This document shows, piece after piece, positions 2,710 through 14,253 of a stretch of DNA of 37,496 nucleotides (its first letter is position 1; each line of letters starts with the position of its first letter). This stretch comes from Desulfuromonas sp. (GTDB lineage Bacteria; Desulfobacterota; Desulfuromonadia; Desulfuromonadales; Geopsychrobacteraceae), in the NCBI GenBank assembly GCA_002869665.1, contig PKUG01000091.1:1-37496 (forward strand), read 5' to 3'. Below the pieces are notes generated by a model. That model searched no databases, was not told the origin of the DNA, and saw nothing but the letters and a program-made list of their open reading frames with translations. The position numbers and the translations under genes were made by a program.

Positions 2710-2785
2710 GGGGCTGTAGCTCAGTTGGGAGAGCGTTTGACTGGCAGTCAAAAGGTCCGCGGTTCGATCCCGCGTAGCTCCACCA
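2710..2785 (+). tRNA. tRNA-Ala (anticodon GGC)
   Basis: A 76-nt cloverleaf with encoded CCA. The acceptor stem carries the G3-U70 pair that identifies alanine tRNAs; the anticodon stem TTTGA/TCAAA closes the loop CTGGCAG, giving anticodon GGC; the T-arm has GGTTCGATCC. The last 48 bases are duplicated perfectly at 14206-14253, so this gene is the insertion site of the adjoining 11.5-kb element and remains intact after integration. Confidence 0.97.
2738..2785 (+). repeat. Left attachment site (attL), within the tRNA-Ala 3' half
   Basis: 48 bp identical to 14206-14253, from the anticodon stem (TGACTGGCAG) through the CCA end. The tRNA stays whole because the element supplies or restores the same 3' half. 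Confidence 0.95.
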
Positions 2786-2794
2786 TAGAAAATT

Positions 2795-2828
2795 AAGCAC
2801 TTAGCGATTTATCGTTAAGTGCTTTTTT
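2795..2828 (+). terminator. Rho-independent terminator after tRNA-Ala
   Basis: AAGCACTTAGCGAT pairs with ATCGTTAAGTGCTT (13 Watson-Crick pairs and one G-T), followed by a run of T. It lies inside the element, just after attL. Confidence 0.85.
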
Positions 2829-2844
2829 CTTTTCAAACCCTTTG

Positions 2845-2867
2845 GGTGCCAAGATAGGTGCCAAGAT
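2845..2867 (+). repeat. Arm-type repeats near attL (2 x GGTGCCAAGAT)
   Basis: GGTGCCAAGAT occurs at 2845-2855 and 2857-2867 with a 12-bp period. The same 11-mer occurs three times next to the other att site (14069-14112). Paired repeats inside both ends of an element are what tyrosine integrases bind with their N-terminal domain; the role is inferred. Confidence 0.65.
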
Positions 2868-2999
2868 TTATTTTTCTGCCATGTTTTTGTTACCTTAGAA
2901 CCTCGATTTTCTAATCTTGACGACTCCCCCATTTCTTCAAATTTCAGATACCAAATAAAGTAACAACTAGGCTGTTTTGAATGGTTTTTGCATTCTTGC

Positions 3000-3412
3000 A
3001 CCAGTTCCCTAAAAATCAAACGGAGCCACAAACCGGGGCTTGCATTCCCGCACAGGGGGACAGACCTAGAAGGACCCGTCGCGCCGTATCACTTCCGGAT
3101 GCTTTCCAGCTATCCAACCGGCAACAGAGGCTAGGACGGGGGAATTTTTCGCGGATGTTTGAACAGTTCAAGGGGCGCGGGGTCCCAAGATATAGGCGGC
3201 GGGGTGATCGTCGCTTGTGCGGGCGTTCAGGCGGCGGAATGATCCCCCCGGCGGATGTCTCGCCATTCGCCGGGGGTGCTGTTCGATGGGTTTGCTGTTT
3301 TAACCGGCGGGCAGCAGAAACGTCTGATTTATCCTAAGGTGATCCAGGAAAGAGTTACAGTAGGACTTACAGGAAAGCCCCGACACTGAAAAAATGTTGG
3401 GGCTTCATTTTT
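3000..3412 (+). ncRNA. Candidate structured noncoding transcript (unidentified)
   Basis: A GC-rich segment in AT-rich surroundings, between 2786 and 3523 where I find no convincing gene. It ends in a strong plus-strand terminator with no plus-strand gene in front of it. Possible helices are CCCCCGGCG (3245-3253) with CGCCGGGGG (3268-3276), CGTCGC (3209-3214) with GCGGCG (3231-3236), TTGAA/TTCAA around 3150, and CCCGTC (3075-3080) with GACGGG (3135-3140). One 118-codon frame (2981-3337) crosses it but is Arg/Gly-rich and unlike a real protein. I do not recognise a known RNA family (not tmRNA, not group II domain V). GC-rich sequence forms chance helices easily, so this is a lead only. Confidence 0.3.
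3375..3412 (+). terminator. Rho-independent terminator
   Basis: AAGCCCCGACA pairs with TGTTGGGGCTT (one G-T) around a 9-base loop, followed by CATTTTT. The T-rich side is on the plus strand, where no gene precedes it. Confidence 0.75.
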
Positions 3413-3523
3413 ACTGAAAATGGTGATTTGTAATATAGGAGACGTTTTGTCTTTTTGAATTACTTAAGAGCGTCCCCCTTTCCATGCACGTAAATTCCTA
3501 TCTCCAGGGAGGAGTGTATTCAA

Positions 3524-3571
3524 ATGAGAAAGATCAGTTTGACTATTCGCCTAAAGACATTGGTTTGTTAG
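3524..3571 (+). pseudogene. 15-codon remnant with a strong ribosome binding site
   Basis: GGGAGGAG stands nine bases before an ATG that reads MRKISLTIRLKTLVC and then stops. The peptide resembles the first residues of methyl-accepting chemotaxis proteins (M-K-x-L-x-x-R-L-x-x-L-V pattern), and the frame ends inside the inverted repeat that opens the next unit at 3567. It may be the 5' stub of a gene cut by that insertion, or a leader peptide. Weakly supported. Confidence 0.25.
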
Positions 3572-4349
3572 GCATCATTATTAAACATTAGACAAGATGC
3601 CAATGCTGGGCTTAAGTGTTAGACCCAGTTCTCGTGCAACCGCCCAGTAAAGAGCAGTGTCGGCTGCAACAATTGGGCGTTGGATCTTGGTTTCAAGTTC
3701 AGAAATAATGTCGAGAGTTCTTGCTCCTGCCCCTGTTACTACAATTGCTTCCGCGCTGGAAGCGGCCCCAGCAGAAAAAGCGATCGAATTGCTTGTCAGT
3801 TCATTTGTCATGGACCAGCCAAAATCTTCGATCTTTATTCCTGGGCCAGCAACTCCTTGGTCTGAAAGCGACGAAACATGCACCACGTCAAAACCACACA
3901 GATTCATAAAATATGAGAAGCCGTCACGCCAGACATTGTCGTAGTACGTACAATTTACAGCGATTTTATTAACACCTAGTTCCCTAAGGGCATCAACCAT
4001 AGCAAGGCTTGTCATGAGGGCAGGAAGTTCTGTAGCGCTTGTTATGGCCTCTTCTCTGTAACGTGCCTCTGCTTCCGACTGAGCGCAAGCCCACGCAAAT
4101 GGGCTGCCAACCTGCGCAATGAGTTCGCAACCCATTGCTTTTAAACTTCTTGCACATAAATTGAGTTCATTCTGAGTGGTTGCGATAGTCTCCAGCCGAT
4201 AGTCAAATTCTGGAAGAAGAAGAGGCGCTTGCTGAGTTAGAACACATTCTTCAACCACTGTGGGGAACTCGGAAGGAGCCGGATCAAACCAAGCTGGTGC
4301 GCTGATAAAACCAATTTTGGTTTTGTTGTTCATAGTTCAGATGCCTAAC
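3567..4349. repeat. 10-bp inverted repeats boxing a single gene (cassette-like unit)
   Basis: GTTAGGCATC at 3567-3576 and its exact reverse complement GATGCCTAAC at 4340-4349 sit 4 bp after the stop codon and 6 bp before the start codon of the enclosed gene. Their outer seven bases fit the integron core consensus GTTRRRY/RYYYAAC, in the correct orientation for a gene cassette read on the minus strand. No full-length attC (55 bp or more) is visible next to them, so this is a cassette-like box, not a proven cassette. Confidence 0.5.
3581..4333 (-). CDS. Asp/Glu racemase-superfamily protein (arylmalonate decarboxylase / maleate isomerase-like)
   Basis: 250 aa, the usual size of the arylmalonate decarboxylase / maleate isomerase branch of the Asp/Glu racemase superfamily. 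Family-like segments are CELIAQVGSPFAWA (69-82), VNCTYYDNV (126-134) and VVTGAGARTLDIISELE (198-214), followed by RPIVAADTALYW (219-230). Enzymes of this fold use one or two cysteines; arylmalonate decarboxylase keeps one, in an SCGG motif. Here the first position is Gly76, as in the decarboxylase, but the second aligns with Gly201, so no obvious catalytic cysteine remains. The gene is alone, on the minus strand, tightly enclosed by 10-bp inverted repeats. Fold assignment is fairly sure; activity and substrate are unknown and it may be inactive or differently catalytic. Confidence 0.75.
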   Translation of the reverse strand: MNNKTKIGFISAPAWFDPAPSEFPTVVEECVLTQQAPLLLPEFDYRLETIATTQNELNLCARSLKAMGCELIAQVGSPFAWACAQSEAEARYREEAITSATELPALMTSLAMVDALRELGVNKIAVNCTYYDNVWRDGFSYFMNLCGFDVVHVSSLSDQGVAGPGIKIEDFGWSMTNELTSNSIAFSAGAASSAEAIVVTGAGARTLDIISELETKIQRPIVAADTALYWAVARELGLTLKPSIGILSNV

Positions 4350-4463
4350 TAGTTAATAAGAAGCGATTGCCTTTATACCACTTTGTAAGATTCAGTTCAC
4401 CAAGGGAAATCCAGAGTTTTACTGTCCACCAAGACAAATAGGAAACTGTAGCCAAGTTTGAAA

Positions 4464-4491
4464 CAAAAAAACGGCCACCTGGATGACCGTT
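4464..4491 (-). terminator. Rho-independent terminator of the upstream minus-strand gene
   Basis: On the minus strand AACGGTCA pairs with TGGCCGTT (one G-T), six-base loop, then seven T. It follows the small gene ending at 4627. The rest of 4350-4626 shows no gene. Confidence 0.7.
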
Positions 4492-4626
4492 ACTATTTAT
4501 CCTGTTATTTCTATTCTTGGGTCAAAATACCCTCAATCTTCAGGTCTCTTATAAGGGCTGCAATATGAGAAAAGTCCCTCCAGTGCAAAAGGGTCGAATA
4601 TCTTCAAAAACCATTTAATTACCACT

Positions 4627-5010
4627 TTATTTTACAAAAGAGGATTCATCTCTTCTGATTAATTTTTCCACCTCTTCTCTGCTGCTTACAATAATTAATG
4701 GAACAGAGTTTACGATAATTTTAGAAAATGAATGTAGAAATGCTTTAAGAATATTATCATTTGTAACAATATAATGAGTGACGTGAGGAGCACGACTCTT
4801 AACATCGGCACACATTTCAGCGCTTCTTATTGCATCTTTTGCTTGATAGGTGAATTTTTGACAATTAGTAAAATCTGAAAGAATATAACGATAATTCTTA
4901 AGGGCGACTAACTCGAAAATTTCTTTCTGTACAGAATGAATATCCGTGCTGTGTACGTTGCCAGAATACTCTATAATAATTTTATTGTCCTCTAGTGAAA
5001 TTATATACAT
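4627..5010 (-). CDS. SpoIIAA/STAS-like small protein, function unknown
   Basis: 127 aa with no signal peptide or membrane segment. The pattern resembles SpoIIAA/STAS-like domains: an N-terminal strand (IIIEYSGNVHSTDIHS), a helix (VQKEIFELVA), then YRYILSDFTNCQKF, where the conserved 'ilsDf' strand would be, another helix, and a strand pair near HYIVTND. Such domains serve as anti-sigma antagonists or membrane-associated regulators, but no partner kinase, sigma factor or phosphatase lies nearby. Very AT-rich compared with the replication genes to the right. It stands alone and has its own terminator. The gene call is good; the domain assignment is tentative. Confidence 0.6.
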   Translation of the reverse strand: MYIISLEDNKIIIEYSGNVHSTDIHSVQKEIFELVALKNYRYILSDFTNCQKFTYQAKDAIRSAEMCADVKSRAPHVTHYIVTNDNILKAFLHSFSKIIVNSVPLIIVSSREEVEKLIRRDESSFVK

Positions 5011-5217
5011 CGCTGTCCACTCCGACCATAAAAGTTATTTTTATTACATTTACTTTCCTGAATGAACAAATATTGATGAGTTTTATCTTGTCGATTTTCT
5101 TCATAGCGTAAGAATGATTATACATTATTTTTCCGATTTCACCCCCCCTGCAATCTGAGAATCGCCTGCGCATTCGGTACATTTTTATGAACTCACTATC
5201 GAAGAAAGGAGAGGATC

Positions 5218-5790
5218 ATGGTAATGAAAATTGGTTATGCGCGGGTCAGTACCTCTGGGCAAAATCTTGATCTTCAATTGGATCGTCTGGCTGACTGTGA
5301 CCGCATCTACAGAGAAAAGGTCTCGGCAGCTTCTACGAAAAACCGACCTGAGCTAAAGAACGCTCTCGACTTTGTCCGAGAGGAAGACGTGTTCATAGTG
5401 ACGAAGTTGGATCGGCTAGCTCGGTCAGTTGTTGATCTGTCCAACATCGTTCAGCGGCTGGAAGATAAAAAAGTTGATCTTGTCGTTCTTGATCAGGGAA
5501 TCGACACCACAACAATCTATGGCAAGCTGCAGTTCAACATCCTTGCTGCTATAGGCGAATTTGAACGGGGCCTGATTCGTGAACGCTCACGGGAGGGTCG
5601 AGACAAAGCAAAATACAGGGGTGTGAAGTTCGGTGCGAGACCAAAACTCTCGTCAGGGGATACCCAGTCACTCGTGCAGGATTTTATGACACCCGGATTG
5701 AGTAAGCGGGAATTAGCCGAACTCTATGGGATCAGCATATCCTCAGTATACCGATTGTTTGATGAAAACAGACCTGCCGATGCAGCTTAA
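5218..5790 (+). CDS. Serine recombinase (resolvase/invertase family)
   Basis: 190 aa, normal for small serine recombinases. The N-terminal catalytic domain has YARVSTSGQNLDLQLDRL with nucleophile Ser11 and Arg9, and KLDRLARS (63-70) with the conserved arginines. The long E helix follows (LQFNILAAIGEFERGLIRERSREG), and the C-terminus holds a helix-turn-helix (SKRELAELYGISISSVYRLF, about 160-180). Such enzymes resolve cointegrates or invert DNA. No transposase or invertible segment is recognisable around it, so the target is unknown; a res site could lie in the 5011-5217 gap. ATG 5218 has AAGGAG six bases upstream; ATG 5224 is a possible alternative. It is the only plus-strand gene of the element and is closed by a strong terminator. 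Confidence 0.9.
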   Translation: MVMKIGYARVSTSGQNLDLQLDRLADCDRIYREKVSAASTKNRPELKNALDFVREEDVFIVTKLDRLARSVVDLSNIVQRLEDKKVDLVVLDQGIDTTTIYGKLQFNILAAIGEFERGLIRERSREGRDKAKYRGVKFGARPKLSSGDTQSLVQDFMTPGLSKRELAELYGISISSVYRLFDENRPADAA

Positions 5791-5795
5791 AGACA

Positions 5796-5829
5796 AAGGC
5801 CACCCGTAATAATCAGGTGGCCTTTTTTC
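5796..5829 (+). terminator. Rho-independent terminator of the recombinase gene
   Basis: AAGGCCACC pairs with GGTGGCCTT, followed by a run of six T. The next 230 bp (to 6058) show no gene or clear signal. Confidence 0.85.
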
Positions 5830-6058
5830 TGAGTAAAAAGTCTCCGAAATGTCTCTATCTATCAGAAACCACTTATCAGCTGACACGAGGGGGCTTTCCC
5901 ATGTTAAAACCCGTGATTTTTTGAGAATCATCTTCCTCAGTTTTGACAGATTCTTTGGACGTGTTTTAGAGCGCTTTCAACCAACCTTTGCAGCATTCAT
6001 TGTTGTATATTCCATCAGATTTGTTCGTTCTCTTCCTTCCTGATAAGAGCCGACAAAC

Positions 6059-6946
6059 TTAACGGCCCTGTCTGGACCAAACCTTCTTCTCTTCTACATA
6101 CTTTTTTGAAGGGTCCGCAAATTCGGGGTAAAACCCTTCTTTTGGCAATAAACCCTCTCTGCTTCTGTGCTTTCGGACATTAGCATAATAAACAGTTTGT
6201 GCAGGGTGATGAAATGAACGGCTCAAGAAGGATCTATAAATACCATATTTAAAATAACTAGTTTTATCGCTCAAAGTATGTCCTTTGATATTTACTTTCT
6301 GTCCTCCATTTACCCAAACCTTGAAAAAACCATCTCGAGAACGAGACCAGTGGGCGTGAACTTCTATTTTGTGCCAACGTCCACGTAGATCTGACTCACT
6401 AATCAAGGGATAATACCTCTTCGTCAACTGGTTATCTAACCACAACCCGCCTTTGTGATTTTGAAACATGAAAGCAGGATTTCTGCCGTTCAGTTGATGG
6501 AATTGGCCAAGAGCTACTTTTGCAGGATAGATATTTGGGTAATCTTCGGGGACAAACATATGCCACCCATACCACCAGGTTTCACCTTCTTCGTTTGGGT
6601 ATGACAAGGCATCTTCAGAAAGTTCTGATCTTTCCCGATCATTTTTGCAGTCGCTCCAACCCATTTCTTGGCCACAATCGCCAGGGCGAACTTCAAATCT
6701 TTCGACCACAGAAACGGGAGCATAGCCAGTTGGATCATTAATTGCCAAATAACCGTATGTTTTTGTATTTAGTGATCGATGAAAATTAAAAAATCCCTTA
6801 TTGAAATCAGAGTCTTCAACAATTTCGTATTCCTGAGAATTGAGATTGGCTACAAATGGAGGCAACACTGATGGAGTCAAATCGTCCAGAGTTGGAGCAC
6901 AACCCCAAAACGCAAACAATACAAGGCTTAAAATGATCAAACGCAT
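6059..6946 (-). CDS. Polysaccharide-lyase-like lipoprotein (heparin lyase I-like family)
   Basis: 295 aa from the chosen start; an upstream ATG at 6991 is open, but ATG 6946 has a perfect GGAGG and begins a signal peptide (MRLIILSLVLFAFWGC) with a lipobox-like cysteine at residue 16. The mature part matches the heparin lyase I-like jelly-roll family (Pfam Polysacc_lyase): RSEL at 106-109, YGWHMFVPEDYP at 126-137, LGQFHQ at 146-151, WHKIEVHAHW at 191-200 and WVNG near 211. The protein would be exported and lipid-anchored, and could cleave or bind an acidic extracellular or capsular polysaccharide. It is low-GC, faces the same way as the core operon, and is likely cargo. Family assignment is from motif memory; the substrate cannot be told. 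Confidence 0.72.
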   Translation of the reverse strand: MRLIILSLVLFAFWGCAPTLDDLTPSVLPPFVANLNSQEYEIVEDSDFNKGFFNFHRSLNTKTYGYLAINDPTGYAPVSVVERFEVRPGDCGQEMGWSDCKNDRERSELSEDALSYPNEEGETWWYGWHMFVPEDYPNIYPAKVALGQFHQLNGRNPAFMFQNHKGGLWLDNQLTKRYYPLISESDLRGRWHKIEVHAHWSRSRDGFFKVWVNGGQKVNIKGHTLSDKTSYFKYGIYRSFLSRSFHHPAQTVYYANVRKHRSREGLLPKEGFYPEFADPSKKYVEEKKVWSRQGR

Positions 6947-7016
6947 TTGTCCTCCTTTTTTGTGTCTTACTGGATTTTTAAATCTTCTCATAAGTTTTGC
7001 TGAATTTCAATTTAAG

Positions 7017-7045
7017 AGAAATTTCGGACAAAATTTGAAATTTCT
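7017..7045. promoter_or_regulatory. 9-bp inverted repeat upstream of the lipoprotein gene
   Basis: AGAAATTTC at 7017-7025 and GAAATTTCT at 7037-7045, 70-100 bp before the start at 6946. Possible operator or 5'-UTR hairpin; AT-rich, so chance is possible. Confidence 0.35.
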
Positions 7046-7075
7046 AGAAACTCTGACTTCTGAGAAACCATTGGA

Positions 7076-7366
7076 TCAGGCACAGTATTGCGCGTTGTTG
7101 GCTCCTGGGCTAATCCCGATCAGATAACCACGTTCATGAAACGGTGATTCCGTGCGACCGCGGCGGGCCGTATCGAAGCAATGGCACACTCGGTGTTCAA
7201 GGTGGTTCGGGTCGGTAGTGCGGTTCAGCCAGCCGTGAATATGATTGCAGCGACAAAAGGGACAAGGGATTGTAATTTGACAGCATTCGGAGTCGTTGCA
7301 AGAGATACGTCCCCGCAGGATAGCCAGGCCAGTTTCAGGGTCAGTCATGGGTGTTGTTTTGCTCAT
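7076..7366 (-). CDS. Small Cys/His-rich protein, probable zinc ribbon, unknown function
   Basis: 96 aa. The centre has CPFCRCNHIHGW and, later, HRVCHCF, a spacing that suggests a zinc-binding ribbon, followed by a Gly-rich tail (GYLIGISPG). Small proteins with a CPxC...HGW...H/C pattern are common next to replication genes of prophages and satellites; that is general recollection, not a named family. ATG 7366 has AAGGA nine bases upstream; a second ATG lies six codons in. It sits just beyond the iteron array, transcribed away from it, which suits an accessory replication or regulatory role. Likely a real gene; function unknown. Confidence 0.6.
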   Translation of the reverse strand: MSKTTPMTDPETGLAILRGRISCNDSECCQITIPCPFCRCNHIHGWLNRTTDPNHLEHRVCHCFDTARRGRTESPFHERGYLIGISPGANNAQYCA

Positions 7367-7401
7367 AGCTTCACGTCCTTTTTCTATGTTCCGTTATTTG
7401 T

Positions 7402-7560
7402 GGGTTACACGGGTTACACGGGTTACAAGGGTTACAGCTTTGATATTATTATGTTTTTACGTAACCTCTACTGTAACATTTTTTTGAATTTGGGTTACAC
7501 TTGGGGTAACGGAATTATTCAATAATTCCGGGCCTGTAACCCGGGTAACCCATGTAACCC
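7402..7560. other. Candidate replication origin: inverted arrays of 9-bp iterons around an AT-rich palindrome
   Basis: Four tandem 9-mers GGGTTACA(C/C/A/G) fill 7402-7437 without gaps, and a single GGGTTACAC lies at 7492-7500. Three tandem copies in the opposite orientation (CTGTAACCC, GGGTAACCC, ATGTAACCC) fill 7534-7560. Between the arrays is AT-rich DNA and the perfect palindrome GGAATTATTCAATAATTCC at 7511-7529. The array ends two bases before the stop codon end of the DUF927 helicase gene. Staphylococcal satellite (SaPI) origins have the same plan: iterons flanking an AT-rich stretch just after the rep gene. Origin function is inferred. Confidence 0.65.
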
Positions 7561-7562
7561 TT

Positions 7563-9458
7563 TTAAAATGGATGTTCTATATTTTCCAGTGACGCAGGGG
7601 GTCCCGGCTCCGGCTCTTCCGTCTGTTCAATGGGCGGAAAATGATAGCAGCGGGTCGGGCCTAAACCGGGCAGCCGGTGGAGTGCTTGCGGCTTGCCGTC
7701 GGTGCCGGGTTGCAGCAATCCCTTTTCGATCAGGACCTGAACCGCCCAGCGGGGTTCAAACCCTCCGGCAAGTTCGGTTCTGAAGATGCTTGGCAGAACG
7801 AAATATTCAAAGGTGCCGTTCTCGGTGTCCAGCACTTTGACAACGGCGCGGCGGAATCCCGCCCGGTTCGGGGTCGGCTGCTTGCTTTTCGATCCCATAA
7901 GGACAAAGCGGCTGTCTCCGTGACGTTCGAAAAACTCCGCGACCTGCCGCAAGAGCTGTTCGACTTCCCCCTGCCCGGCGGTGCCGCGACGTTGCAGCCA
8001 GGAATTAAAGCAGATCAGGGCCGCGTCGGTGGCCTCCCCTTTGCTCCAGCCGGTCAGGCCGTACAGGCTCGCCAGCTCGCCCCCGGCGGCAACCAGAGCA
8101 AAGCGTTTAGCGACGCGGTGAACCTGCCCGGCTGCGGCAGGCGGCAGGGCGAAGGTCAAAAACTTTTCCTGTTCGCCCGCGATCCAGCGCAGCCGCTCGG
8201 CTTTGGCGGCGGGGTCGTTGACTTCCGCAACCAGCCGGGTCAGATAACCGTGCAGCACAGTTCCATGATAGCGCCCGGCGGCGTCCTTCAGGTGATCCGC
8301 CAGAGCGGCGGCGTTGTCCATGTCGTGCAGGACTTCAAAAATCCCCAGGTTCTGCCCGGCGTCGGCTTCAATGTCGGCAAGCCTCAACTCCTGCCCGGTA
8401 AAGCTGCGTTTCCCTGCCGTCGCCATCATGGTTGCCTGGTCGGTTTCTCCGGTGGTGAGAAACAGGATTCGCCATTGTCGCCGCTCGCGGGCGTTACCGT
8501 GCTGGTCCGCCCGTCCCCGTCCGATCCCCCCGGCCAGTTTATAGACAACCTGCCCGATCTGTTCCGGGTGGGCCTGCCCCAGCTCATCCATGAACAGGCA
8601 GGCGTCGTTATGCTGTGCGGCAGTCGATTCAAAGGCGTTGGCGGTGTTGTCGCAGGTCTTGACCTGCCCGGTGGGGGGACCGGCGACCGATGCCGCGACA
8701 TGCAGGGCGGTGGTCTTGCCGTCGCCGGAGCGGCCAACAAGATTGAAGCCTCCCCCCTCTCCCCCGCTGAGGGGCAAAAGCGGCGCAGCCAGAGACAGGC
8801 AGGCGGCGAACAGCAGGCGACTGTTGCCGCTGCAATAGCGCCCGATCTGCTCTTGCCAGTCGCTCAGGGTGCCACTTATTGAATAGTCGGGCGCTCCGTC
8901 GCCGGGGTCGGGGAGAATGACCGATTCTTTGCCGATGCTGCCGATTGTCTCGCCGGGCAGGACAAAAGCGTGATGATCCCCTTTAATAAGCCAGCCGGTA
9001 CGGTCCGCCAGGATGATCCGGGGCAGGTTGAGCGGGTGAAGGATAAGGCTCTTCAGCAGGTCGGTGAATTGCGACCGTTCGCGGGTGCCGGGGCCGAAGC
9101 TGCCCCCAAGATTGACGAATTGAACGCGGGCCTCATCCCCGCCGCTGCGATAAACAAGCTCTTGCGCCAGGGTCCATATCTTCGTTTTCCGGTCCAGGTC
9201 GGTCAGTTCCAGAATGAGGGTGAACTTGTCGCCGCCGCTGGTCCGGGCGATCCCCAGCGGGGCCAGCCGGGTTGAAAAGAAACTCTCTTCGATGATCCCC
9301 TCTTTGTCCTCGGTTTGTAGATAAACGCCATTCGGCTTGACGATATAGCGACCAAAGGGAATGCCCTTTTCCGCGTCCAGCACAGCGTCTATTTTCGCCT
9401 TGACCGGGGCCAGCCCCCGACGTTCGGCCAGGTCGTTAAAGTCGGTATGTTTCGCCAT
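7563..9458 (-). CDS. DUF927-type replication helicase/ATPase of the element
   Basis: 631 aa. The N-terminal 200 residues (YIVKPNGVYLQTEDK, later RIILADRTGWL) fit the DUF927 domain found in helicases of prophages and integrative elements. A P-loop ATPase follows: Walker A GRSGDGKTT at 242-250, preceded by the helix LLFAACLSLAAPLLPL, and Walker B ACLFMDELGQ near 286-295. The C-terminal third is a helical region with a Pro/Glu-rich tail. It would unwind DNA at the element's own origin, and the iteron array begins right after its stop codon. Translation is coupled to the primase gene (TAATG, one-base overlap). Family call is good; the DNA-binding determinant for the iterons is not located. Confidence 0.85.
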   Translation of the reverse strand: MAKHTDFNDLAERRGLAPVKAKIDAVLDAEKGIPFGRYIVKPNGVYLQTEDKEGIIEESFFSTRLAPLGIARTSGGDKFTLILELTDLDRKTKIWTLAQELVYRSGGDEARVQFVNLGGSFGPGTRERSQFTDLLKSLILHPLNLPRIILADRTGWLIKGDHHAFVLPGETIGSIGKESVILPDPGDGAPDYSISGTLSDWQEQIGRYCSGNSRLLFAACLSLAAPLLPLSGGEGGGFNLVGRSGDGKTTALHVAASVAGPPTGQVKTCDNTANAFESTAAQHNDACLFMDELGQAHPEQIGQVVYKLAGGIGRGRADQHGNARERRQWRILFLTTGETDQATMMATAGKRSFTGQELRLADIEADAGQNLGIFEVLHDMDNAAALADHLKDAAGRYHGTVLHGYLTRLVAEVNDPAAKAERLRWIAGEQEKFLTFALPPAAAGQVHRVAKRFALVAAGGELASLYGLTGWSKGEATDAALICFNSWLQRRGTAGQGEVEQLLRQVAEFFERHGDSRFVLMGSKSKQPTPNRAGFRRAVVKVLDTENGTFEYFVLPSIFRTELAGGFEPRWAVQVLIEKGLLQPGTDGKPQALHRLPGLGPTRCYHFPPIEQTEEPEPGPPASLENIEHPF

Positions 9459-10279
9459 TATGGTTGCTCACTTTCGGAAAAGTCGGGTTCGATCCATGCG
9501 CCTTGTACAGCGTCGGCGGCTTCAGCGGCTGCCGCTCGCCCTACCGGGTCCGCGTCGGCACAGATAAGGATATGAACCTTCGGGTATTGTTGGCGCAGGG
9601 CCAGGGCAACCGGCTTCAGGTTGCCCGCGAAAAAGGCGACGGCGCAGGGGTGGCCGGTTGCTTCATGCAGGGTGGCGGCGGTGGCATAGCCCTCCGCGAT
9701 CAGCAGCGCGTCGGCAGGCTCCGGGCCGATCAGGTGGAAAGCTCCCCCGGCGGCGGTGCCGCTCAAAAATCGCTTGCCGCCGTCCGGCTCGATGAATTGC
9801 AGTCCGGTCAACTCCCCGGCGCTGTTGCGAACCGGAACAGCCAGGGATTGCCCCAGCTGCTTGACCCCATGAACCTGAACCTGCTTGCGGGTCAGATAGG
9901 GGTGATCCGGCGCGGCAGGCTGCGCCCGCTGCCATAACCGCCGGGCCTTGTCGGCTGCTGCGGCGTGGTGTTTTCGCTGTTCCTCTTCCTGTTTGGCGCG
10001 GGCTTCGGCCATCTTGCGGGCATACTCGCGGCGCTCTTCCCTGGTCAGCTCGCGGTGTGGCCTGCCGGAGAACCAGCTTTCTTTCACTCCGGTTTTCCAG
10101 TTGCCGAAACTCGCGCCGTGGGTGCCGTCGCCGTTGTCGAACAGGGTAATAAAGCCGTTGCGCGATTGCCGGGAATCCTCCGGCAATCGAAAGCGGCGCA
10201 GCTTCCCGTCAGCGATCAGGGGCGCGTGGGCCGGGTCGATCCCGGCGGCCTGCATGGCGCTGATCAGCTCTTCGAACAT
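9458..10279 (-). CDS. TOPRIM-domain primase of the element
   Basis: 273 aa from ATG 10279 (MFEELISAMQAAGID); the frame is open to 10327, but the family usually begins like this. N-terminal part: GFITLFDNGDGTHGASFGNWKTG, typical of phage and plasmid primases with a degenerate zinc-binding or PriCT-like start. A charged helix of Ala/Lys/Arg/Glu follows, then HPYLTRKQV. The TOPRIM domain comes last: LLIAEGYATAATLHEA holds the catalytic glutamate (EGYATAA), and ILICADADPVGRAAA the DxD. It would prime replication together with the downstream helicase. Its first codons overlap the end of the preceding small gene and its stop overlaps the helicase start, so the set is one translationally coupled operon. 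Confidence 0.85.
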   Translation of the reverse strand: MFEELISAMQAAGIDPAHAPLIADGKLRRFRLPEDSRQSRNGFITLFDNGDGTHGASFGNWKTGVKESWFSGRPHRELTREERREYARKMAEARAKQEEEQRKHHAAAADKARRLWQRAQPAAPDHPYLTRKQVQVHGVKQLGQSLAVPVRNSAGELTGLQFIEPDGGKRFLSGTAAGGAFHLIGPEPADALLIAEGYATAATLHEATGHPCAVAFFAGNLKPVALALRQQYPKVHILICADADPVGRAAAAEAADAVQGAWIEPDFSESEQP

Positions 10280-10533
10280 TGGCAGGGCTTTCGAACCGAC
10301 CATTGAAGCCGAACAAAATTTTCGCAACTGTCGGCAAAGTCTAGCCCGATGTCGCTTGCCCCCAGGGCGCGAACGTCGCGTTCCGTCCCGCCTAAGCCAT
10401 CGTCAACAGCAACCAGGGCCAGGGCTGCGACCGGCTCGCAAAACTCTTTGCTCTCTTCTGAATCCAGGTACACGGCGCGAAGGTTCGCCGGGGCCGGGAT
10501 GATTTGAATAATGTCGTTGAAGGTCGGTTTCAT
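10264..10533 (-). CDS. Small acidic protein of the replication operon, unknown
   Basis: About 89 aa starting MKPTFNDIIQIIPAPANLRAVYL at 10533, with a G-rich stretch a few bases upstream and a one-base TAATG overlap with the stop of the AlpA-like gene. Its end overlaps the primase start by about 16 bases in another frame. Acidic and without recognisable motifs; LALVAVDDGL and RDVRALGASDIGLDF look like strand and helix elements. Tight coupling on both sides argues that it is real. Function unknown. Confidence 0.6.
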   Translation of the reverse strand: MKPTFNDIIQIIPAPANLRAVYLDSEESKEFCEPVAALALVAVDDGLGGTERDVRALGASDIGLDFADSCENFVRLQWSVRKPCQCSKS

Positions 10534-10769
10534 TATTCGCCCCCCTTCCGTGTGCGATTCCGCAGCCATGCCGCAAGACTAACAGCCACGTAGGCGCGTT
10601 TTGTGCCGACCTTAATTGACTCCGGGACTGGCTGTTTAAGGCTGGCGAGATTCTGAAGAGTTTTGCCGGTGATGATACCGCCGGAGAACTTCTTGACTTC
10701 CGGGGCGGCGACCAGGGGGGACGGCCATTTTTCGGCCATGTCGGTGAAAATGTCTTGTGCGGTGTTCAT
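10533..10769 (-). CDS. AlpA-like DNA-binding regulator
   Basis: 78 aa from ATG 10769 (MNTAQDIFTDMAEKW), which has GGAG eight bases upstream; a GTG start at 10832 would add 21 residues. The C-terminal half has the layout of AlpA/excisionase winged-helix proteins: GGIITGKTLQNLASLKQPVP, then the basic KVGTKRAYVAVSLAAWLRNRT. In P4-like and PICI elements AlpA proteins activate excision and replication genes. Here it is the first gene of the alpA-small protein-pri-rep operon, as expected for a switch. A GTGTCCGACAC palindrome lies about 55 bp upstream. Functional label is by analogy. Confidence 0.65.
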   Translation of the reverse strand: MNTAQDIFTDMAEKWPSPLVAAPEVKKFSGGIITGKTLQNLASLKQPVPESIKVGTKRAYVAVSLAAWLRNRTRKGGE

Positions 10770-10821
10770 GCTTTTTCTCCGTGTCTGTGAAAGGATTTGA
10801 CCTAGCGTCCTAGGGCTTTTT

Positions 10822-10832
10822 GTGTCCGACAC
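10822..10832. promoter_or_regulatory. Possible operator palindrome before the replication operon
   Basis: GTGTCCGACAC is a perfect 11-bp palindrome in the short gap between the unknown 343-aa gene and the AlpA-like start at 10769. Short enough to be chance. Confidence 0.3.
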
Positions 10833-10851
10833 GGGAAAATTCTACAAGATG

Positions 10852-11883
10852 TTAGAAAAGAACTTTTCCGGAACAGTGAACGGTGCTACTTCTGAAAGAA
10901 TTAATTAATAATTCCAACAGGTTATTTTTTTGATGGGATGATTTTTTATTTTTTTTGGGGGGGCGTGGAAACCAGCCGCGTGAGACATGGTCGAGGGTTC
11001 GTCCTGCTTCACTTGAGCAAGTTAGAGCCCATTTTCGGAAGTCGGCAATATCACGCTGCCGTTGTCGGGCGGCGCGCGTGTACCGGTGGCGGATCGTGCT
11101 CTCAGGTGGTGGGGACTGTGCCCAGCGGTCAGCAATGATCCGCTCCACAGGTGTGTCGGTGAAATTGACCGACCCTGAAAACACCGGCTCATAGGTCCAG
11201 GCTTCACCATCCGGCAGCCAGTAGCGGACCTGGCGTCCATCGTAAAGGTTGGACCAGTCTTCATCGGTTTTCAGTCCAAGACTCAAGACGTACCAGGTCA
11301 AGTTTTTTTTCAGCGTGTTGAGGCTGCCTGGTCGAGTGGCATTGTGACCAAGATGCGTCGGCAAATGAAAGCGTATCGGCTTGGGGGTGCCGTCAAGCCT
11401 TGGCTCGCCATCATCAGGAAGTAGCTGTTCGATCTGCCACAGGGCGTCCGCCTTATCCATGCGGCGCGGGATGCAAAAGATTTGTTCAGCGGTGATTAGT
11501 GCGGCGGCCTGCTCGGGGTTCAGGTCCCCATGCTGGACTCGGTGAAGGATATTGCTTAAGTGTCGCTTGAAAAATTCAGTTTCTGTTGCAATGTTGTGGT
11601 TCCAAACCCTTGCCAGAACTTCAACGCGGTGCCAAACTCGCGGGAAATCGGCCATAGTGGGGTAGCGATTGAACAGGTCAGGAAGCAGGCTGTGTATCCA
11701 TGGATCACTGTAGTTGCTCGCTCTCATTGCGGGCCTGGTCAACTCTCGCAAGCGGCGACCTTGATGCAGGCTGACGCGAATCACCTCGCGGAAGGGCTCG
11801 CAGTACAACAGATACGCCCACCAGACCCGATAGGTCTCTTCCAATCCAAGAAGTCTTTCGCGGGGGGTGTCCGCTGTCGGCAT
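10852..11883 (-). CDS. Unknown 343-aa protein of the element
   Basis: No family recognised. The protein is rich in Trp, Arg and His, with WWAYLLYCEPFREVI near residue 22, PRVWHRVEVLARVWNHN near 80-97, and RHRYTRAARQRQRDIADFRKWA near 265. It has no signal peptide or clear membrane span and looks like a soluble, basic, possibly nucleic-acid-binding protein. Start ATG 11883 gives MPTADTPRERLLGLEE. Near the 3' end the coding strand has seven C, eight A, T, six A (PPKKNKK), a homopolymer tract prone to slippage; in another frame a stop follows at once, so the last 35 residues may not be native. It lies between fic and the AlpA-like gene, the accessory-gene position of satellites. Confidence 0.6.
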   Translation of the reverse strand: MPTADTPRERLLGLEETYRVWWAYLLYCEPFREVIRVSLHQGRRLRELTRPAMRASNYSDPWIHSLLPDLFNRYPTMADFPRVWHRVEVLARVWNHNIATETEFFKRHLSNILHRVQHGDLNPEQAAALITAEQIFCIPRRMDKADALWQIEQLLPDDGEPRLDGTPKPIRFHLPTHLGHNATRPGSLNTLKKNLTWYVLSLGLKTDEDWSNLYDGRQVRYWLPDGEAWTYEPVFSGSVNFTDTPVERIIADRWAQSPPPESTIRHRYTRAARQRQRDIADFRKWALTCSSEAGRTLDHVSRGWFPRPPKKNKKSSHQKNNLLELLINSFRSSTVHCSGKVLF

Positions 11884-11992
11884 ATGAGCACTCCCTCAAG
11901 TGCGATCCCTCAATCTCGAAAGTTTGCCGGGCAGGGCGGGGAGGGGGTCTCCGCCTTTTCGGGGATCAGCCTAGCCCGGCAAGGTGAAAAGT

Positions 11993-12796
11993 TTATTCCT
12001 CCTGCAAGCTTTGAATCAGCCGCAGATATTCCCGCTGCGCTTCCCAGACCATGTTTGTCAGCAGGATGTTGAACGGCACATTATCCCCGCGATTGCTGGC
12101 TTGCAGGGCGGCGATATAGTCCCCCCGGACAAGCGGGGGAATGATCGTGACCGGATAGCCCGCCTGCATCAGGGCCAGATTCATCAGCAGCCGGGCGGCT
12201 CTGCCGTTGCCGTCGATAAAGGGGTGAATCGTCGCCAGGCGGATATGCAGCCAGGCGGCGAACAGGACCGGGTGCAGGGCGTCCCTTTGCTGTGGGATTT
12301 GGGCGACAAAGGCTTTCATCTCTGCGGGAACTTTAGACGGCGACGGCGGGACAAAAGTTGTCCCGGTGATAATGACCGGCTTGCTGCGGTAGCGCCCGGC
12401 GTTGTCCGCGTCGATCCGGTAATAAAACAGCCGGTGCAGGTCGAGAATGTCTTTCTCTGCGATGGATTGCGACTGCGCCAGCTCGTAAACCCTGTTCAGG
12501 GCTTCGCTGTGCCCTATGGCTTCCAGGTGGTCCCGCAGCGGCTTGCCGCTGACCGTGATTCCATCCTCAAGAACAACCTTGGTTTCGCTTTCGGTCAGGG
12601 TGTTCCCTTCCAGGGCGTTGCTGGAATAGGTCAGGCCGATCCGGTAATAAGCCCGCAGTTGCAGCAGGGCGTCCCGATCCAGGGGGCGAAGCTGGTTGAT
12701 CTGCTCTTGCAGCGCGTCTACCTGCTTCAGCTTGTTTTCGTAGGTCATGGGGGCTCTCATGGTGTCTGGTTTCTGACAGTCTATAGAATTTATCAC
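11993..12796 (-). CDS. Fic-domain protein with internal inhibitory helix (probable AMP-transferase)
   Basis: 267 aa. The catalytic motif HPFIDGNGRAAR (191-202) is canonical, with His191, Asp195 and Arg202 for ATP-dependent AMPylation. An N-terminal helix has SNALEGN (Ser59, Glu63, Gly64), the [S/T]xxxE[G/N] inhibitory motif of class II Fic proteins, so the enzyme carries its own brake and needs no separate antitoxin. A flap region (PVIITGTTFVPPSP) is also visible. GTG 12796 overlaps the integrase stop as GTGA, suggesting coupling; ATG 12760 or 12748 are alternative starts. Co-expression with integrase fits a mobile-element gene acting on host or competing phage, but the target is unknown. Confidence 0.92.
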   Translation of the reverse strand: MINSIDCQKPDTMRAPMTYENKLKQVDALQEQINQLRPLDRDALLQLRAYYRIGLTYSSNALEGNTLTESETKVVLEDGITVSGKPLRDHLEAIGHSEALNRVYELAQSQSIAEKDILDLHRLFYYRIDADNAGRYRSKPVIITGTTFVPPSPSKVPAEMKAFVAQIPQQRDALHPVLFAAWLHIRLATIHPFIDGNGRAARLLMNLALMQAGYPVTIIPPLVRGDYIAALQASNRGDNVPFNILLTNMVWEAQREYLRLIQSLQEE

Positions 12797-14040
12797 CTTC
12801 GGCTATCCAGCGGGATAACCTTTGTTGTTTTTTCTTTGCCGGTGATGCTGAGAACGTGCCGCTCCCATGCCAGCCAGGCGCGTTTCTTTTCGTCGTCCTG
12901 GTTATGGCGCAGATAGTGGGCGGCGGTGACTCCGTGCAGTTTATGAGACAGCACGGCGGCGATATGGTCCGACGTGGTCCCCCGCAGGGCAAGGCCGCTG
13001 GCTATGGTCCGGCGCAGGTCGTGAGCGCAGAATTTTTCAACGCCATAAAAATCATTGCGGCGCAGGTTATGATTCAGGGCTTGGGCGCTCAGGGCTTGGC
13101 GCTTCTGCTTGCCGTCCTTCACAACGACATTAAAAAACGGGTAGCGCTCTTCGATCAGCAGGGCGCGGGCGCTCTCGGTCAGATAGACCCGGTGCGGGCG
13201 CTTCGATTTCGTCCGACTGCCGGGGATCGTCCACCAGTTGTTTGTTTCGTCGATCTCGCGGCGATCCAGGTTGATTGCTTCGCTCAGGCGGACCCCGGTC
13301 AAAAGCAGGAACTTCAGCAGGCGGTGAAGGGTGTCGCCATCGTCCAGGTTGTGCCAAACGGTGACAATCTCGGTATCGGTCAAGGTTCTTTCGCGGGGCG
13401 TGTTGGCTTTCGGTTTCGGAATCGCGGGAACCGGGTTGACCTCGACATATTCCCGGCCAGGGTGTGACAGCCAGGTGTAAAAGGCGCTCAGGGATGACCG
13501 GACAGCGACGGCAAGAGACGCGGACCTTTTCTTCGAAACATATTCTATACACTGTGCAAGGTACTTTTTGGGGATCTCAAAAATCAGGGTTTCGCCCAGG
13601 GTCGGCTTGCCCTTGGCGGGCTTGTAGGCAGCGGCAATTTCCAGGCAGTCTCTATAAAAGCGGGCCGTAGTCGGGCGGACTGTCAGGCCATCCAGGTATT
13701 CAGCGGCCAGGTCTGAAAAGGTACGTTCCCGCTCGGCTGCCAGCTTGGCGGCCTCTTCGGCTTCAAGCTCTGCCTGTTCTTTCAGCTCCCGCTCTTCGGT
13801 CAGGGACGTGGGGCCGCTGCCCTTTTTAGCATTGGCGCGAAACGCGGCTAGCTTGCGTTCGGCGTCCAACTCCGTCAGCCCTTCGGACAGCCACCCAAAA
13901 GATTCAGTTCTGGTCTGTCCGGCAATGGTATAGCGCAGGATCAGCAACCGATCCCGCTTGACCCCGTGACGGCGGGTTTCATGTTCCTTGAAGAATATCC
14001 CCTTGCGCCCGGTCGGTTTCAAATCGTCTCTGAGTGCCAT
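12793..14040 (-). CDS. Tyrosine integrase of the tRNA-Ala element
   Basis: 415 aa. The N-terminal domain (1-75) is a beta-rich arm-type DNA-binding domain (KEHETRRHGVKRDRLLILRYTIAGQTR), followed by a Glu/Ala-rich helix, then a SAM-like core-binding domain (105-205) and the catalytic domain. Catalytic residues: Arg251 (LLTGVRLSEA), His340-x-x-Arg343 (HDLRRT), His366 and nucleophile Tyr376 (AAHYLRH). It lies 165 bp from attR with arm-type repeats between, and would integrate and excise the element at tRNA-Ala. ATG 14040 starts the family-like N-terminus. The fic gene overlaps its stop codon. Confidence 0.95.
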   Translation of the reverse strand: MALRDDLKPTGRKGIFFKEHETRRHGVKRDRLLILRYTIAGQTRTESFGWLSEGLTELDAERKLAAFRANAKKGSGPTSLTEERELKEQAELEAEEAAKLAAERERTFSDLAAEYLDGLTVRPTTARFYRDCLEIAAAYKPAKGKPTLGETLIFEIPKKYLAQCIEYVSKKRSASLAVAVRSSLSAFYTWLSHPGREYVEVNPVPAIPKPKANTPRERTLTDTEIVTVWHNLDDGDTLHRLLKFLLLTGVRLSEAINLDRREIDETNNWWTIPGSRTKSKRPHRVYLTESARALLIEERYPFFNVVVKDGKQKRQALSAQALNHNLRRNDFYGVEKFCAHDLRRTIASGLALRGTTSDHIAAVLSHKLHGVTAAHYLRHNQDDEKKRAWLAWERHVLSITGKEKTTKVIPLDSRR

Positions 14041-14068
14041 AGCTTGACCTTCTGATTAGTCCATCTTG

Positions 14069-14112
14069 GGTGCCAAGATGGGTGCCAAGATTTTTCGGGA
14101 AGGTGCCAAGAT
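14069..14112 (+). repeat. Arm-type repeats near attR (3 x GGTGCCAAGAT)
   Basis: Copies at 14069-14079, 14081-14091 and 14102-14112; the first two keep the 12-bp period seen at the left end. The first also forms the inverted repeat CATCTTGG-GTG-CCAAGATG. Likely integrase arm sites, also covering the integrase promoter region. Confidence 0.65.
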
Positions 14113-14205
14113 TTGCGGGAACCTTCGGGAACTATAATATTTCTAATCTATTGATTTTGCAAGAGTAAAAGGAAAGAACGGGAATTCGCAGGAGTGCAAA
14201 AAACC

Positions 14206-14253
14206 TGACTGGCAGTCAAAAGGTCCGCGGTTCGATCCCGCGTAGCTCCACCA
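14206..14253 (+). repeat. Right attachment site (attR), tRNA-Ala 3' fragment
   Basis: Perfect 48-bp copy of 2738-2785. It lacks the 5' half of a tRNA, so it is not a second tRNA gene. Confidence 0.95.

Follow-up and report, generated by a model that had tools for sequence, protein, structure and literature searches.

A probable replication origin in an iteron array behind the DUF927 helicase gene of an integrated element of Desulfuromonas sp.

The origins of Staphylococcus aureus pathogenicity islands (SaPIs) and of Gram-negative phage-inducible chromosomal islands (PICIs) lie 3' of rep and consist of two sets of iterons around AT-rich DNA, and rep and ori of EcCICFT073 maintained a plasmid (PMC6092414). 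Cch2, which belongs to another helicase family, used its C-terminal domain to bind a putative origin adjoining its own gene (PMC7581432). The stretch analysed here (the window, 37,496 nucleotides of a Desulfuromonas sp. contig) contains an 11.5-kb element that is inserted in tRNA-Ala, is bounded by a 48-bp perfect direct repeat (att), and carries an array of iterons directly behind its DUF927 helicase gene. The array is read as the replication origin (ori) of this integrated element, with a probability of about 0.88; the plan of such origins has already been published for SaPIs and Gram-negative PICIs, and the array is a further example, in a desulfuromonad. The coordinates of all features are collected in Table 1.

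The iteron array and its close relatives

The word GGGTTACA was counted by exact matching over the whole window and occurs seven times, always inside 7402-7560 (7402, 7411, 7420, 7429, and 7492 on the plus strand, 7535 and 7553 on the minus strand), and a copy with one mismatch, GGGTTACC, at 7544 on the minus strand completes three gapless inverted 9-mers. Chance would give 0.45 copies in the window, or 0.004 at the composition of the 196-bp intergenic region, and none of 100 shuffles reached seven. The tandem pair GGGTTACANGGGTTACA is unique to the array within the 3.1-Mb genome. Between the last base of the array (7560) and the first of the helicase stop codon (7563) lie two bases. This distance, the succession of direct, single, and inverted copies, and the perfect palindrome at 7511-7529 are as the first-pass annotation had described them; three degenerate sites with GTAAC cores (7461, 7473, and 7506) are additional to that description.

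One strand of the array folds much better than its shuffles (z -7.8), as might a terminator or a structural element that works as RNA or single-stranded DNA. The inverted iterons by themselves yield that fold, however, the array is without a terminator-like T run, and its copies are in tandem, with a fixed 9-bp pitch and a fixed orientation within each arm, so that a role of this kind is extremely improbable.

Iteron sites are found at corresponding positions in the window and in three close relatives, namely a family relative (G126), a second element of the same genome (L125), and a Desulfuromusa element, whose helicases are 62-78% identical to that of the window. Most copies differ from those of the window by TA in place of TT: most or all copies in the close relatives read GGGTAACA, and the Desulfuromusa array mixes GGGTTACA and GGGTAACA. 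The positions that match 7473 and 7461 (about +84 and +98 in the helicase sense) are iteron-like in the relatives, and at 7473 a full iteron is present. The second DUF927 element lies on contig C175 (5763 bases) of the same genome, with a helicase 62-63% identical to that of the window, and its array has the layout of the window array with the word GGGTAACA.

The palindrome is missing from the aligned relatives; the origin therefore does not require it, and its reading as part of the origin was rejected. In the window, in G126, and in the second element of the same genome, the motif AATRATATCA occupies an aligned position 110-112 bases past the helicase stop, and it also occurs in or near the arrays of L007 and L012; being confined to the relatives of the window and a few others, it was rejected as a general origin motif. 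Part of its copy in the window, AATAATATCA at 7441-7450, looks like the core of a site for integration host factor, which is a lead only.

Arrays behind related helicases

About 200 relatives were compared in all, with helicases taken from 395 genomes of the phylum, 80 genome contigs, plasmids, phages, and viral contigs; a first single-protein scan of the viral contigs confirmed no relative. Clustering was tested without reference to any motif, by requiring a 7-mer in at least five copies within 260 bp in the zone from -350 to +420 of the helicase stop, at the 109 loci that have a full helicase C-terminus and sufficient downstream DNA. Such a cluster was found at 81 of these loci; of the 109 sets of 20 dinucleotide shuffles, only two attained five copies. 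At 84 of the 109 loci (10% expected), the highest-ranking cluster of the entire locus lies in the zone. The expectation that iterons would recur near related helicase genes was thus borne out, which supports the first-pass proposal that the array is the element's own origin.

Several observations weigh against an origin. No cluster of five is present in the expected zone at 28 of the 109 loci, and some arrays lie elsewhere, as in L043 and L112, where iteron-like clusters are found 1.8-3 kb further downstream. Many elements are known only in integrated form, and the array could have another role there. The circular relatives showed no usable origin signal in their GC skew, since its amplitude was mostly within that of block shuffles and its extreme was explained by gene direction. 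Among the related helicases, those of L054, L043, and L112 have no cluster following their gene.

The words differ between clades and include, besides GGGTTACA in the window, GGGTAACA, TGGTAACA, GTGTAACA, GTGGAACA, TGGGAACA, GGGGACA, TGGTGACA, TGGCGACA, GTGCTACA, GTGGTACA, and others. Altogether 63 distinct consensus words fit the frame abGxyACA or [G/T]GxyACA, in which G, A, and C are conserved (the last A less so) and the remaining positions vary. Words with x=T, of the form NGTyACM, read as another such word on the opposite strand, and their orientation is therefore ambiguous; the labels TT and TA rest on the preference at the last base and on the layout. Iterons on the same strand are spaced 9 bp apart in 360 cases and 10 bp in 48, and the mean AT content of the arrays is 52%, that of the preceding gene 40%. 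In the window, GGGTTACA is putatively the specificity of the element's own initiator. The suggestion that it is a new one did not hold, since GGTTACA-type words are used in other clades (L183, L090, and L197), although the nearest relatives use GGGTAACA. Elements that reside in one genome, including the two in the genome of the window, were compared with incompatibility in view; they mostly have different words within a pair, as would be expected anyway, and one Xenorhabdus genome has two elements (L498 and L499) with the identical word GGGATAA.

Circular plasmid records also contain related arrays, likewise behind DUF927 genes. On a circular plasmid of Legionella fallonii, no annotated product other than the DUF927 protein can be recognised as a replication initiator, and nine iterons begin 6 bases behind the DUF927 gene. 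The Photobacterium toruni plasmid pCECT9189-4 (L119, a linear record), which has genes for a protelomerase and a ClpP-like head protease as well, carries GTGTAAC repeats behind its DUF927 helicase gene. Three loci (L045, L118, and L493) have two iteron clusters each, which lie kilobases apart, one immediately following the helicase gene, an arrangement that recalls ori and crr of P4. In a second DUF927 branch, of Escherichia coli and Klebsiella PICI-like elements (L120, L491, L493, L495-L499, and L501), differently shaped words (TTGGTTCA, TCGGTTCA, TTGTCTCA, and TTGGGATAA) occur at the same location.

The array might instead be an operator, through which a protein of the element regulates, at the level of transcription, the helicase operon or the small Cys-rich ORF next to the array. 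It does lie between two genes of the same transcription direction, with one promoter-like match on the minus strand within it, but promoter-like matches are near the chance level, and G126 keeps the array, while the first 240 bases behind it contain nothing that corresponds to the small ORF. Across families, moreover, the array stands behind the helicase regardless of the following gene, and its word tracks the wing segment of the helicase (see below), all of which makes an operator unlikely.

The helicase and the proposed recognition code

The helicase profile matches SaPIbov1 Rep (PDB 8tch) over its full length with an E-value of 1.2e-39, and the helicase Cch (5dgk) of the staphylococcal cassette chromosome SCCmec with an E-value of 4.7e-33. 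These two were again the best solved structures for an AlphaFold2 model of the helicase (mean pLDDT 84.6; fold match to 8tch, E-value 1e-19), and the likeness to SaPIs, first drawn as an analogy, is accordingly one of homology. The model ends in a winged helix with helices at 556-563 and 569-578 and hairpin strands at 592-596 and 600-607. Of the two readers of the array that had been proposed, the helicase is the likely one and the separate primase was not favoured, because the array stays behind the helicase with the primase fused or separate, whatever gene comes next, and because the word tracks the wing segment. After excision, the DUF927 helicase would use its C-terminal winged helix to bind both inverted iteron arms, load itself on the AT-rich stretch between them, probably as two facing hexamers, and unwind it, and the adjacent Toprim primase would then prime synthesis.

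It is proposed, at about even odds, that initiators of the DUF927/SaPIbov1-Rep type share a code in which winged-helix residues 589-594 (numbering of the window helicase) read the variable bases of the constant frame abGxyACA, so that single residue changes would re-specify the origin and the iterons would follow in concert. The pairings are suggestive: K589 appears to go with G as the first base and R589 with T or another base, K589 with P590 may specify GGG and K589 with T or L590 GTG, and residues 592-594 may bear on x and y. Residues 590, 593, and 594 are among the columns that share the most mutual information with the variable bases.

Natural pairs of close helicases are in line with such a code. 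The helicases of Proteus vulgaris and P. terrae are 97.6% identical (22 differences in 900 residues); P/T at 590 is the sole difference inside 589-594, and nearly all of their iterons are switched (GGGTAACA/GTGTAACA) in flanking DNA that is mostly identical. A Xenorhabdus pair (96.3% identical) has R/K at 589 and S/T at 593 with the words TGGTAACA/GTGTAACA, and a Pantoea/Enterobacter-type pair (90% identical) has T/S at 593 in the segment with the words GTGGAACA/GTGTAACA.

In the first set of loci, G was the first base in 18 of 22 cases with K589 and in 1 of 19 with R589 (p 7e-7). Viral contigs were scanned after the rule for residue 589 had been written down, and among their distinct combinations of wing and word the figures were 17 of 22 and 1 of 16 (Fisher p 1.4e-5); the p-values for residue 589 are not phylogenetically independent, because the viral-contig set overlaps the clades of the first set. 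When permutation was applied only to pairs between clades (38 clades), the family-wise p was 0.025 for residue 589 against the first base, and the corrected p for residue 593 against base x was 0.14, which is not significant. Pairs that switch words have 18 of 197 changes in 589-594 (7.0 expected), but pairs with the same word are likewise enriched (40 of 666, 23.8 expected), and the hypervariable linker at 583-588 also changes in the word-switch pairs and scores above 589-594. The count of changed columns was therefore rejected as proof of the wing, which it cannot single out. In view of the overlapping clades, the result for residue 593, and the changes in the linker, the code stands as a proposal open to testing and not as a result.

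A literature search that covered few subscription papers and not the key SaPI origin papers turned up neither a description of the common frame nor one of the link between residues and words. For a whole class of elements (DUF927 islands, PICIs, and small plasmids), a probable origin is identified here from sequence alone, and the choice and change of origin by self-loading initiators become testable through natural near-minimal pairs such as the 97.6% identical helicases with different words. Should the wing code prove right, origin specificity, and possibly incompatibility groups of satellites, would be predictable from the initiator sequence.

The element and known systems

Table 1. Features of the array and of the element that carries it (window coordinates)
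Feature	Position	Strand	Remarks
att copy 1	2738..2785	+	3' end of tRNA-Ala(GGC)
Arylmalonate decarboxylase-like protein	3581-4333		Cargo
Serine resolvase	5218-5790		Cargo
Polysaccharide lyase-like protein	6059-6991		Cargo
Small Cys-rich ORF	7076-7366		Next to array
Four tandem iterons, GGGTTACAN	7402..7436	+	9-bp pitch; distal arm, viewed from helicase gene
AT-rich stretch separating the arms	7437..7491	.	Candidate melting site
AATAATATCA	7441..7450	-	AATRATATCA type; adjoins distal arm
Two degenerate iterons	7460..7478	-	GGTTACG, 7460-7466; TGTTACA, 7472-7478
Lone iteron, GGGTTACA	7492..7499	+
Palindrome, GGAATTATTCAATAATTCC	7511..7529	.	19 bp, perfect; not conserved in relatives
Three tandem inverted iterons (GGGTTACA, GGGTTACC, GGGTTACA)	7535..7560	-	Proximal arm; 2 bases from helicase stop
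DUF927 MCM-like initiator helicase	7563..9458	-	631 aa; C-terminal winged helix; homologue of SaPIbov1 Rep and Cch
Codons for helicase residues 589-594 (KPQALH)	7677..7694	-	Run leading into wing hairpin; proposed word readers
Toprim primase	9458..10327	-	Directly upstream of helicase
int-alpA RNA (RF02996)	11907..11981	-
Tyrosine integrase of element	12793..14040	-
att copy 2	14206..14253	+	48-bp perfect direct repeat of 2738-2785; adjoins integrase; element ~2786-14253

The gene content of the element also includes a Fic protein. Short GGTGCCAAGAT repeats at both ends (2842-2868 and 14066-14112) are likely arm-binding sites of the integrase. An ORF at 10533-10832 had no family match in the protein scans that would mark it as an AlpA/Xis-type regulator; the int-alpA RNA is present in the element. 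Direct iteron arrays are generally known to serve as plasmid centromeres too, and the array could accordingly be a partition or incompatibility site in place of an origin; no ParA/ParB-like gene was found among the element proteins scanned, however, and homologous initiators have their origin at this very position (PMC6092414, PMC7581432), so that a partition site is very unlikely.

Among the known systems, SCCmec has in Cch a DUF927 MCM-like homologue of the window helicase, whereas the integrase of the window element is of the tyrosine type and not Ccr. Cch2, of a different helicase family, binds repeats that adjoin its gene through its C-terminal domain, as is proposed for the window helicase. 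From PICIs of the EcCICFT073 type the element differs in its word, no terminase or capsid match was obtained among the element ORFs scanned, and no helper phage is known. It shares with Gram-negative PICIs an integrase with a specific att site, a size within about 10-20 kb (here 11.5 kb), the int-alpA RNA, and, as in the pri-rep-ori region of EcCICFT073, two sets of iterons around AT-rich DNA immediately 3' of rep. Compared with SaPIs, the word is different, the host is a Gram-negative desulfuromonad, and the primase is separate. In the SaPI-like record PT1028, the region that follows the DUF927-like gene contains nine repeats of GGGAACT, a word that fits the same frame except at the last base. 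In the rep-ori region of SaPIs and in the window, the helicases are homologous and the iterons lie directly 3' of the initiator gene.
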